A DNA stretch of 64,000 nt from Roseivivax marinus (GTDB lineage Bacteria; Pseudomonadota; Alphaproteobacteria; Rhodobacterales; Rhodobacteraceae): contig NZ_FOAI01000003.1 in NCBI RefSeq assembly GCF_900109705.1, forward strand, positions 62,001 to 126,000, in the 5' to 3' direction. The position numbers and the translations under genes are program-made. The notes under the pieces were generated by a model. The model was given only the letters and a program-made list of their open reading frames with translations. It had not been told where the DNA came from and searched no databases. Positions within the stretch are counted from its first letter, which is position 1. Each line of letters begins with the position of its first letter. This document shows, piece after piece, positions 42,133-45,040 of this stretch.

Positions 42133-43179
42133 TCAGCGTCTTGCGGCCAGCCTGATGGTGAACGTCCGCGGCGCGCCGGCCGGGGGCGGCGGGAACGGTG
42201 CCGCCTGCCGGATATGTGCGAGCGCCGCGCCGTCGAGCGCACCGGAGCCCGAACTCGCCGCGATCTCGATCCCCGCGAGCGCGCCGGACCCGGAGACGGT
42301 AAAGCGGACCTGCGCCGTGCCGGAGCGGTTCGTCCGTAACGGTCCGAGCCGCGAGATCCGGCGCATCACAGCGCCGCGGTAGTTGCTGGCCGCCGCGTTC
42401 CCGGCTTGCTGGCCCTGTCCAGAGCGCGTGCCCTGTTGCGTGGCGTTCGAGTTCGGGGTTTCCGTGGTTGCGCCGCGCCGGGTGTTGCGTTCGGCCGTGC
42501 CGGCGGCCGGGGGCGCGGCCGGTTCCGGGCGCGCCTGACGCTGCGGCTCGGCCTGGCGTCGGGGCGCGGGCTCCGGCTCGGGGGCTGGCCTGTGCCGCGC
42601 CTCGAACGCGGCGCTGCGCCGGGCGGGCCGGAGCGAGCGGGCCACGGCGGCGGTATCGGGACTGTCGGCGGCAAGAGCGGAGGTCGGGGCCTCTGGCGTC
42701 AGAGCTGCGGCGGGATCGGGCCGGGCGGCCGGTTCCGCCTTGTCGGATCGCGAAACCTCCGGGACCGCTGCCGACCCGGCGGAGAGCATGCCGTCCGCAC
42801 GCACCGGGGCCTGGGTGGCCGCGGTCTCGGAGCGTGTGGGCGTGGCTTCGGACCGTCCGGCCTCGATGACCTCCGCCGCCCGCGCGGCGCGGATCGGTTC
42901 GGTCGGTTCCGGCCGTGGCGCCGTCGCGGCGGGCGCGTTTTGCCCGGCGGATTCTGCACGAGTGATCTCGCGGGGATTCTCGGCGCTCAGCGTGCCCACC
43001 GCGAGGTCGGCGAACGTGCCGAGCCGGGCGGCGGCCCCGCCACGCCCCGCCTCGATCTTGATGTCCGGGGCGCGGTCGAGAAGGGCCCAGCCGGCCGCCG
43101 CGTGCACCAGCACCGCGCCGGCAAGGGCCAGCGCCTTGCCGATGCCGCCGGAAGGGATGTCCGTTGCCGCGACGCTCAT
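42133..43179 (-). CDS. tonB: TonB-family energy transducer
   Basis: A 348-residue protein with one N-terminal membrane helix (about residues 13-34), a long Pro/Ala/Arg/Glu-rich periplasmic spacer (about 40-255) and a C-terminal TonB domain (about 260-348). The domain contains YRGAVMRRISRLGPL, GTAQVRFTVSGSGAL and AALAHIRQAAPFPPPP. It would transmit proton-motive force from ExbB/ExbD to outer-membrane TonB-dependent receptors. It is the last gene of the exbB-exbD-exbD-tonB set and overlaps the second exbD by 4 nt (ATGA). No TonB-dependent receptor gene is in the window. Confidence 0.88.
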   Translation of the reverse strand: MSVAATDIPSGGIGKALALAGAVLVHAAAGWALLDRAPDIKIEAGRGGAAARLGTFADLAVGTLSAENPREITRAESAGQNAPAATAPRPEPTEPIRAARAAEVIEAGRSEATPTRSETAATQAPVRADGMLSAGSAAVPEVSRSDKAEPAARPDPAAALTPEAPTSALAADSPDTAAVARSLRPARRSAAFEARHRPAPEPEPAPRRQAEPQRQARPEPAAPPAAGTAERNTRRGATTETPNSNATQQGTRSGQGQQAGNAAASNYRGAVMRRISRLGPLRTNRSGTAQVRFTVSGSGALAGIEIAASSGSGALDGAALAHIRQAAPFPPPPAGAPRTFTIRLAARR

Positions 43180-43577
43180 TCAAGGCCCCGTTCGGTCACG
43201 ATGAGGACCCGGTCGGCCCCGGCGGCACGCAATTCGCCCGAGATGGTGACCAGCGTGGCGGCGGGCAGGTCGCGGTCGGGCACCACCCGGAGCGTCCGCC
43301 CGGCTTCCTCGTCCTCGGCCGCCATTTGCTCGGCGTAGTCGGCGGCGCTGGACAGCGTATCCCCCCGGAAACTCAGCCGCCCGTCGGCGTGGATCACCAG
43401 CGCATCGCCCGGCGCGCGGCCCTCCAGCTCGGCGGTGCGCACGAGCGAGAGGCCACCGTCCAGCGGGTCTGCCAGCGTGCCGGCCACCATGAAGAAGACC
43501 AGCATCAGGAAGACGATGTTGATCAGCGCGATGGTCGGCTCGCGGGTCCGGCGCGGGCGGGTGGCACGGCGGATCAC
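43176..43577 (-). CDS. exbD: ExbD-family protein with Asn at the essential membrane Asp position
   Basis: A 133-residue ExbD/TolR-family protein: short basic N-terminus, one membrane helix (about residues 15-36) and a periplasmic domain. The family normally has a conserved Asp early in the helix, as in LIDV, which carries the proton pathway. Here the position reads ALINIVFLMLVFFM, with N20 encoded by AAC (complement of 43518-43520). The periplasmic part (DALVIHADGRLSFRGD, TLRVVPDRDLPAATLV) looks normal. The preceding exbD copy keeps the Asp. It overlaps tonB and the first exbD by 4 nt each, so the three are translated together. Confidence 0.88.
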   Translation of the reverse strand: MIRRATRPRRTREPTIALINIVFLMLVFFMVAGTLADPLDGGLSLVRTAELEGRAPGDALVIHADGRLSFRGDTLSSAADYAEQMAAEDEEAGRTLRVVPDRDLPAATLVTISGELRAAGADRVLIVTERGLE

Positions 43578-43969
43578 GACGCAGCCCCGAGCACCGTGGG
43601 CGCGATGCCGGGAACGCCGCGGATCGCGACGAGAACGTCGGTCAGCCGCTGCGCCGTCACCCCGTCGCGCAATGACACGAGCACCGGTCGGGGCGGGGCA
43701 TCGGCGGGGGCGTCAGCCGCGCGCTCCACCGCCTCGGCCAGCGCCGCCAGCGATACCGTGTCGCCGTTCAGCCGGACTTCGTCGGCGGCGAGTTGCAGGA
43801 ACAGCGGCGCCGCCTCGCTGCCGGGCGTGGCCGAGCGCGCGGCGGTGGTCAGCTCGATCTCCGAGAACCGGGTGAAGGTCGAGGTCAGCATGAAGAACAG
43901 CAGCAGCAGGAAGATCACGTCGATCAACGACGTCATCGACAACCGCCGCCGAAGGCGGTGTCTACGCAT
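43574..43969 (-). CDS. exbD: ExbD-family proton-channel protein (Asp present)
   Basis: A 131-residue ExbD-family protein. A basic N-terminus (MRRHRLRRRLSM) is followed by the membrane helix TSLIDVIFLLLLFFML, with the essential Asp at D17 (GAC, complement of 43919-43921). The periplasmic domain includes LQLAADEVRLNGDTVSLAAL and RPVLVSLRDGVTAQRLTDVL. With ExbB it forms the proton-driven motor that energises TonB. Start: ATG at 43969, overlapping the end of exbB by 8 nt; an open stretch upstream to 44056 is exbB shadow. Confidence 0.9.
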   Translation of the reverse strand: MRRHRLRRRLSMTSLIDVIFLLLLFFMLTSTFTRFSEIELTTAARSATPGSEAAPLFLQLAADEVRLNGDTVSLAALAEAVERAADAPADAPPRPVLVSLRDGVTAQRLTDVLVAIRGVPGIAPTVLGAAS

Positions 43970-44606
43970 GGTGTGCGGTCGCAGTCGCGGCGGGCGATCC
44001 CTCGCGCGGCGACAGGATGGTGTGGATCGCGCGGCTTGCGGTGACGCGCTCGGCATCCATGCGCGCTTCGAACCAGCTCAGGGCGGCGGCAGTGGGCATG
44101 GCAACCAGAAGGCCCACGGCGGTGGTGGTCAGCGCCACCCAGATGCCCCCGGCGAGGACGGAGGGATCCACCCGCGCGCCAGCGTCCTGCAACGCCTGGA
44201 ACGCCTCGATCATGCCGAGCACGGTGCCGAAGAGCCCGAGTAGCGGCGCAAGCTGCGCCACCGTGTCGAGAAAGCGGAAGCCCCGCTCGAGCCGGGCGAA
44301 GCGTGCCTCGGCCTCCGCTTCGAGGCGGGCGACGTCCCGTGGCCCGGCGGAAAGGCTCATGTCCACCACCGGGGCGAGGTAGCTGCGCGAGGATGCAAGT
44401 TCGCTTCGTGCCGCGGCACGGTCGCCACGGTCCCATGCCGCCACCGCGCTGGTCAGGGCGCGATGCCGGCCGACGCCCGCGCGCGCGAACTGCCAGAGCT
44501 TGTAGAGCACGACGGCAAGCGTCAGGACCGAGATCGCGACCAGAACGGCGACGACGGGCCCGCCGATTTCAACAATGGCTTCAATGGACTGAAGGGCAAC
44601 GTTCAT
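43962..44606 (-). CDS. exbB: ExbB-family proton-channel protein
   Basis: A 214-residue membrane protein with three helices (about residues 14-38, 113-135 and 150-172). The MotA/TolQ/ExbB core appears as FLDTVAQLAPLLGLFGTVLGMIEAFQ and GGIWVALTTTAVGLLVAMPT. It forms the pentameric scaffold around the ExbD helices. Start: ATG at 44606 overlaps the upstream gene by 4 nt. Order exbB, exbD(D), exbD(N), tonB on the minus strand. Confidence 0.93.
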   Translation of the reverse strand: MNVALQSIEAIVEIGGPVVAVLVAISVLTLAVVLYKLWQFARAGVGRHRALTSAVAAWDRGDRAAARSELASSRSYLAPVVDMSLSAGPRDVARLEAEAEARFARLERGFRFLDTVAQLAPLLGLFGTVLGMIEAFQALQDAGARVDPSVLAGGIWVALTTTAVGLLVAMPTAAALSWFEARMDAERVTASRAIHTILSPREGSPAATATAHHA

Positions 44607-45040
44607 CCGATGACCTCGATCCCGACACGGCTGTCGAGGCGCAGGTCTCGCGTGCAAGCATCTGCGGGCAGGCCCTCCGCCTCGCAAGTCTCGGCCCCGT
44701 TGATGAGCACGCGGCCCAGGTCCTCGCACATGGCATCCGGCACGACGAACTGGCGAACGCGGGGCCGGCCGGCGGGCAGGGTGTCGAAGTCGAAGAGGGT
44801 CAGGCGCTCGACCTGACCGGCGGCGTCGAAGAGCACGGTCTCGAACACGGCGCGGGTCACGTCCGCGGGGTGGCCGTTCTGAACGAGGAAGGAGAGCGTG
44901 CACCCGGCGTCACGCGACTCGGTCTGGTTCAGCTCGATCGACAGGCGCGCTCCGAGATCGTCCTGTGCGGAGGCCGGGAGCACGAGGGTGGAAACATGAA
45001 GTATCGCGGCTATCCCGCTGATTAGAAGTGTTTTCGTCAT
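44603..45040 (-). CDS. Exported protein of unknown function in the TonB cluster
   Basis: A 145-residue protein with a clear signal peptide (about residues 1-26, VLPASAQ before DDLG). Four Cys occur in the mature part (AGCTLSF, AMCEDLG, ETCEAEG, DACTRDL), probably two disulfides. I recognise no domain; similar small exported proteins accompany exbB genes in Rhodobacterales. It overlaps the exbB start by 4 nt, so it is the first gene of the TonB operon as visible. Start: ATG at 45040; the upstream frame to 45121 does not look like coding sequence. It may be a periplasmic partner of the TonB motor, but this is inference from position. Confidence 0.75.
   Translation of the reverse strand: MTKTLLISGIAAILHVSTLVLPASAQDDLGARLSIELNQTESRDAGCTLSFLVQNGHPADVTRAVFETVLFDAAGQVERLTLFDFDTLPAGRPRVRQFVVPDAMCEDLGRVLINGAETCEAEGLPADACTRDLRLDSRVGIEVIG

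Follow-up and report, generated by a model that had tools for sequence, protein, structure and literature searches.

Can a Ton motor be built on a pair of ExbD proteins in which only one copy has the membrane aspartate? This question is raised by an operon of Roseivivax marinus that encodes two ExbD proteins in tandem. It lies in the window, by which we mean the whole 64,000-nucleotide stretch of DNA analyzed here. The aspartate concerned, Asp25 of E. coli ExbD, is described as essential in the accessible portions of two reports (PMC12905483 and PMC11658791). On the minus strand of the window, five genes overlap head to tail, in the order secreted-protein gene, exbB, exbD1, exbD2, and tonB:

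44603..45040, minus strand: secreted-protein gene, first of the run; N-terminus signal-like by eye; without a Pfam or NCBIfam match
43962..44606, minus strand: exbB, 214 aa; PF01618, 100.5 bits
43574..43969, minus strand: exbD1, 131 aa, ATG start; PF02472, 60.6 bits; membrane Asp kept
43919..43921, minus strand: Asp17 codon (GAC) of exbD1
43176..43577, minus strand: exbD2, 133 aa, GTG start; PF02472, 44.4 bits; Asn replaces the membrane Asp; periplasmic D101 kept
43518..43520, minus strand: Asn20 codon (AAC) of exbD2, aligned with E. coli Asp25 (6tyi)
42133..43179, minus strand: tonB, 348 aa; PF03544 (TonB_C), 41.8 bits; TIGR01352, 51.3 bits

The exb operon and its products

An initial annotation of this DNA had placed two exbD genes between exbB and tonB (43176-43969), read Asp17 (GAC) in the first and Asn20 (AAC) in the second, and described the genes as overlapping. 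The open reading frames and the Pfam matches bear this out, and the secreted-protein gene upstream of exbB, absent from that annotation, extends the run. Neighboring genes share 4 nt (secreted-protein gene/exbB, exbD1/exbD2, and exbD2/tonB) or 8 nt (exbB/exbD1), and the overlap of the two exbD genes suggests matched production. As in a Ton system, ExbB, ExbD, and a TonB C-terminal domain are encoded together (Pfam, NCBIfam, and gene order), and the tonB product has a His within its N-terminal hydrophobic stretch, as seen by eye.

Both ExbD products pass the PF02472 cut-off (25.4 bits). A protonatable aspartate is present in the membrane helix of ExbD1 (D17) and absent from that of ExbD2 (N20), and a profile of ExbD2 relatives aligns Asn20 with Asp25 of the E. 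coli protein (6tyi). The TonB-system ExbD equivalogs TIGR02803 and NF008429 are failed by ExbD1 (23.9 vs. 152.95 and 22.4 vs. 216, respectively), and ExbD2 gave no match to either of them. An AlphaFold2 model of ExbD2, built from alignment A2, reached a pLDDT of 88.2, with a helix at residues 15-34 that contains Asn20 and a periplasmic part that has the ExbD fold. Its seven top PDB matches were all ExbD or TolR (8vgc: TMt 0.76, prob 1.00, E 2.2e-3), and no PDB match fell under an E value of 0.001. As modeled, ExbD2 is a complete ExbD. Its periplasmic aspartate, D101, is almost invariant in A2.

The window's ExbB retains the GTV and TTA threonine motifs, which align with those of TolQ, and both motifs are retained in 79 of 80 loci picked by ExbB (the best 80 of 579 confirmed). 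At the Glu of the TolQ GIAEAL motif, a position that we take to be Glu176 of E. coli ExbB, the window's protein has Val; across the same best 80 loci, this position holds Val in 41, Glu in 22, Gln in 11, and another or an unread residue in 6. We considered that ExbB might compensate for the Asp/Asn pair at this position and did not adopt the idea; nearly all 80 loci are Asp/Asn.

Relatives of the secreted protein are encoded at 42 of these best 80 of 579 loci, upstream of exbB in 41 of them and downstream in one (L057). Four cysteines (C47, C105, C119, and C129) are invariant in its alignment (A4, 40 of 43 rows). The modeled protein is a beta sandwich (pLDDT 91.6) whose nearest PDB fold, IrmA (5ek5), is a weak match (TMt 0.60), with none under an E value of 0.001. 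This four-cysteine protein is perhaps a periplasmic partner of this type of Ton system.

Occurrence of Asp-then-Asn pairs

The Roseivivax marinus genome has seven ExbD-family matches, i.e., TolR, which has the Asp, and three tandem exbD pairs located on contigs C18 (that of the window), C19, and C11. Each of these pairs reads Asp then Asn (D/N).

Three surveys extended this comparison to other genomes. For the first, loci were picked by their ExbB, blind to D/N, and the best 80 of 579 confirmed loci, i.e., the nearest ExbB relatives, were analyzed. Two ExbD genes were present at 77 of them, with D/N in 76 and Asp in both copies (D/D) in one (L074); the three loci lacking a pair, all at contig ends, had no ExbD (L024 and L053) or the first copy only (L049). 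Judging by record titles, the genera include Sulfitobacter, Roseovarius, Nitratireductor, Hoeflea, Pseudovibrio, and Kordiimonas, and also Shewanella, Marinomonas, Aquisalimonas, and Halopseudomonas. The second survey searched 31 genomes, including that of the window, for all members of the ExbD family and counted 31 tandem pairs, 26 of them D/N (among them L244, with a split Asn copy) and 5 D/D, with single matches checked only in part for a missed partner. In the third, the Asn-copy profile A2 was run against three sets of genomes: 299 from the phylum, 385 from the class, and 369 from the class to which G187 belongs (taken here to be Gammaproteobacteria). Skewed to the second-copy lineage and read for the fetched loci only, it yielded in the phylum sample 17 fetched loci at or above 92.6 bits besides that of the window, all of them tandem pairs (16 D/N and 1 D/D), and 12 fetched loci below 92.6 bits, each with one ExbD that has Asp.

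For pooling, pairs with the same first 110 residues were treated as one, which gave 205 pairs, and 3 with a cut-off first copy were excluded. In this pool, which mixes differently biased surveys, all within Pseudomonadota and partly skewed to this lineage (the counts blind to D/N being 76/77 and 26/31), the 202 complete distinct pairs comprise 192 D/N, 2 with Ser in the second copy (D/Ser), 8 D/D, and none with the reverse order; the first copy has Asp in 202/202. The unpaired ExbD and TolR proteins of the pool have Asp in 58/58, with one further fragment unread. Asp then Asn is the rule in this lineage. The initial annotation had asked whether this order recurs in homologous clusters, and it does so in nearly every ExbB-picked pair; the opposite case that it named, Asn in this genome only, is excluded by the pooled counts, in which pairs with two Asp do exist.

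Some loci merit separate mention. Three plasmid loci outside the pooled counts are all D/N, and a stretch chosen without reference to any match (L268, in G199) contained no ExbD. The second copies of L191 and L230 have Ser in place of Asn, likewise not protonatable. The Asn copy of L244 (G017) is broken over two frames, a sign of gene decay or of an error in sequencing that genome. At one locus (L171, G605:C34:1500-10000), a 6-kb part of a single contig encodes two D/N pairs, one on each strand. The two copies of L166 lie in one frame; a single-gene ExbD1-ExbD2 fusion was rejected here, since a normal ExbD1 end is visible by eye in the neighboring frame, and the case was taken for a frameshift.

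No receptor gene was found beside the operon in the window, and the receptor Plug domains of the genome occur only on contigs C12, C16, and C19, with none on C18. Among the first-survey loci longer than 9500 bases, 29 of 64 encode a protein that resembles one of the three receptors of the Roseivivax marinus genome. When 8 such proteins were compared with NCBIfam, 4 scored above the cut-off of a heme (L030 and L045) or siderophore (L062 and L084) receptor. A receptor is also found at the Phaeobacter and Pacificitalea plasmid loci. In Phaeobacter inhibens P66, heme ABC genes are followed by the receptor, a hypothetical protein, exbB, exbD, exbD, and tonB, the exbD genes being Asp then Asn; in Ruegeria sp. 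THAF33, the stretch examined holds the motor genes without a receptor.

The other two paralogous operons of the Roseivivax marinus genome differ in their surroundings. TonB_C domains number only two in this genome, on C18 and C19. The C19 operon (L276, 1-4600) encodes the second D/N motor together with tonB, then another gene, presumably for a siderophore-interacting protein, and then a receptor Plug domain. The C11 operon (L275, 126000-136000) is without a recognizable TonB domain and encodes the third D/N motor near genes for a protein kinase, a PP2C phosphatase, and a type VI secretion FHA protein; a transducer-like frame there had no Pfam match. This operon may encode a Ton-like motor that belongs to a type VI secretion locus.

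Selection on the asparagine and a second aspartate

In the 76 second copies of the first survey, just two columns are invariant, the Asn being one of them. On the first of the two trees described below, the Asn codon of 79 second copies underwent at least 23 changes between AAC and AAT and no residue change; the median column underwent 30 changes. These counts indicate that strong purifying selection maintains the Asn and, since the residue never changed despite so many synonymous substitutions, that Asn itself seems to be selected, beyond the mere loss of Asp.

Its history is less simple. In a first tree (169 rows, residue unmasked), a single branch (100/95) set apart all 79 Asn copies and the adjacent second copy of L074, which fitted a single change from Asp to Asn that was never reversed. 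We withdrew that reading after constructing a broader tree with the residue masked (109 rows), a poorly resolved one in which row L166_D1 is an artefact. In it, the Asn copies do not form one clade; 7 label changes, at least 5 of them forced by starred branches, and 6 changes of the Asp/Asn/Ser state are needed. The second copies of the D/D pairs L239 and L243 stand among the Asn copies (80/58), that of L128 adjoins the window's group (97/96), and those of L074 and L199 group with the Asn copy of L188 (100/99), on the first-copy side; both copies of the D/D pairs L232-L234 lie amid unpaired ExbD and TolR proteins. It is possible that the second copies of L239, L243, L128, L074, and L199 are reversals or have retained the ancestral state. 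Since each of these five groups with Asn copies in at least one of the trees, Asn is not indispensable there, and the Asn state is not absolute. Collectively, the trees and codon counts depict the Asp/Asn arrangement as old and strongly held, with a state that has nonetheless switched a few times.

A second aspartate also distinguishes the copies. In a joint alignment, from which L166 was excluded because both its copies lie in one frame, the membrane Asp is present in 191/191 first copies, 0/191 second copies, and 58/58 unpaired ExbD and TolR proteins. The periplasmic Asp (E. coli 107) has nearly the reverse distribution, i.e., 26/191 first copies, 183/191 second copies, and 57/58 unpaired proteins, in a column that is hard to align in first copies. 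If a slip of one residue is allowed, it is found in 66/191 first and 183/191 second copies, so that the contrast is weaker but still stands. Six columns past it, a Gln (E. coli 113) is present in 176/191 first copies and mixed elsewhere; both E. coli numbers come from the alignment of the ExbD2 profile with 6tyi. The Gln column adjoins residue 112, which in Serratia ExbD is the center of a hydrophobic dimer interface according to the accessible text of one paper (PMC10771500). A term search of two papers found no role for the periplasmic Asp. The 8 D/D pairs have it in 3 first and 3 second copies, so that Asn alone does not account for its loss; the 2 D/Ser pairs have it in 1 first and 2 second copies.

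Thus, by this alignment, the copies look complementary, in that each tends to retain one of the two Asp residues that an ordinary ExbD combines. Only a mixed dimer would have both, which is the main new argument for an ExbD1-ExbD2 heterodimer.

The proposed axle of the paired motor and its known counterparts

The two halves of the paired-ExbD motor in many proteobacteria are probably not equivalent. The reading that we favor, to which we give a somewhat better than even chance, is a Ton motor whose axle inside the ExbB pentamer would be an obligate heterodimer, one ExbD1 and one ExbD2, with a single protonatable membrane Asp. ExbD1 would be the sole source of that Asp; ExbD2 would supply a neutral helix whose Asn permanently mimics protonated Asp, together with the periplasmic Asp that ExbD1 has lost. 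One proton site would then replace two alternating ones. If the motor is rotary, a turn would take five protons in 72-degree steps rather than ten in 36-degree steps; alternatively, it may be a stroke device that needs a single carrier. In rotary models of ExbBD, TolQR, and MotAB, each proton is assumed to drive a rotation of 36 degrees, and in one model the two Asp residues of the TolR axle swap protonation states, as set out in the available parts of PMC12215075 and PMC12905483. An Asp/Asn axle cannot exchange protonation: it would take larger steps with one carrier, or else the exchange is not needed. We infer the heterodimer, the working of the single proton site, and the altered gearing from the sequence comparisons. 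In favor of this motor, we count the conservation of the Asp/Asn order, the selection on the Asn codon, the reciprocal Asp residues, the wholeness of ExbD2, the kept ExbB threonine motifs, and the receptor genes within 29 of 64 near-full-length loci. We also count in its favor that, with Asp25 described as essential and D25N reported as inactive, two ExbD2 copies should not make a functional motor. Against it, we count the D/D pairs, the split Asn clade, the hard-to-align periplasmic column and its equal counts in first and second copies of the D/D pairs, the broken Asn copy of L244, and the absence of a receptor gene beside the window's operon.

The same comparisons bear on other explanations. 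A heterodimer may have formed that has no mechanical meaning, the copies having lost redundant features after duplication and become mutually dependent through a neutral ratchet. We consider this rather unlikely. In its favor, reciprocal loss is what subfunctionalization predicts, Ser is also found at the Asn site (L191 and L230), and D/D pairs persist. So tight a hold on Asn, unchanged in 79 sequences over at least 23 synonymous codon changes, would not be expected under neutral Asp loss, however, and it is invariably the second copy that has lost Asp (no reversed pair among 202). Decay of the gene or a sequencing error, for which one could cite the split copy of L244 and the apparent frameshift that joins the copies of L166 in one frame, has a negligible probability and is already refuted by the Asn of 192/202 distinct pairs and the strong purifying selection.

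The initial annotation had offered, as a second possibility, that the Asn copy is an inhibitory or purely structural subunit. As an inhibitor, ExbD2 would form inactive complexes of its own or displace ExbD1 to throttle proton flow. D25N is indeed listed among inactive E. coli ExbD mutants in the text available of PMC11658791. Yet the gene overlaps in the window suggest matched production, none of the 58 unpaired proteins has Asn, and most first copies are without the periplasmic Asp found in 57/58 unpaired ones, so that an ExbD1 homodimer would itself be atypical; we regard inhibition as improbable. Also very improbable is an ExbD1 homodimer in the pore with ExbD2 as a separate anchor to peptidoglycan or TonB: ExbD2 keeps the periplasmic Asp and fold, but its pore-type membrane helix is conserved to a degree beyond the need of a plain anchor. 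The heterodimer with one proton site, as first proposed in the initial annotation, fits best and gains support, not foreseen there, from the complementarity of the copies in two Asp residues; the dimer itself is still what we infer. The interpretation in that annotation as a whole is partly supported, and the observation on which it was built is confirmed.

More tentatively, and at somewhat below an even chance, we postulate a natural class of 5:2 motors in which one axle helix carries protons and its partner is permanently neutral, a class that would be half-geared or could do without the alternation of two Asp residues, and would serve the three paralogous operons of this genome. If true, a widespread single-Asp motor would be a natural experiment on the assumptions of 36 degrees per proton and of Asp exchange. 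In addition, with its two helices distinguishable, structural and mutational findings could be attributed to one side of the axle or the other, a distinction that no homodimer permits.

Tandem exbD genes in such operons are already in print, and a literature search that covered few subscription papers found no mention of the Asp/Asn split or of an Asn-bearing ExbD. The Roseobacter heme operon of Ruegeria sp. TM1040 comprises hmuR, exbB, exbD1, a duplicate exbD1a, and tonB, plus a hypothetical protein (PMC5225302, accessible text); according to that paper, inactivating hmuR confirmed that it takes part in the uptake of heme. It shares with Phaeobacter inhibens P66 a receptor, a hypothetical protein, exbB, two exbD, and tonB, and resembles the window by gene order; its second exbD is termed a duplicate there, with no residue difference mentioned in that text. 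The tonB-exbB-exbD1-exbD2 genes of Xanthomonas campestris likewise share a tandem exbD with the window by gene order, and differ in that the second exbD is reported, in the part of PMC3551730 available, as not needed for iron uptake. The tandem pairs L232-L234 are also alike in arrangement but have Asp in both copies and group with unpaired ExbD and TolR proteins. The Myxococcus gliding motor AglRQS, a different machine, similarly combines two differing MotB-like subunits with one channel protein, and according to the accessible text of PMC9389320 it is not known whether these pair with each other or each with itself. The ExbB5-ExbD2-TonB motor of E. coli and Serratia (6tyi, 7ajq, and 9ddo) shares with the window the ExbB threonine motifs, the ExbD helix and periplasmic fold, and the TonB C-terminal domain. 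Unlike the axle proposed here, its ExbD is a homodimer with two membrane Asp residues, and in most structures one Asp touches a conserved Thr while its partner is turned toward the cytoplasmic cavity, as described in the available part of PMC12905483.
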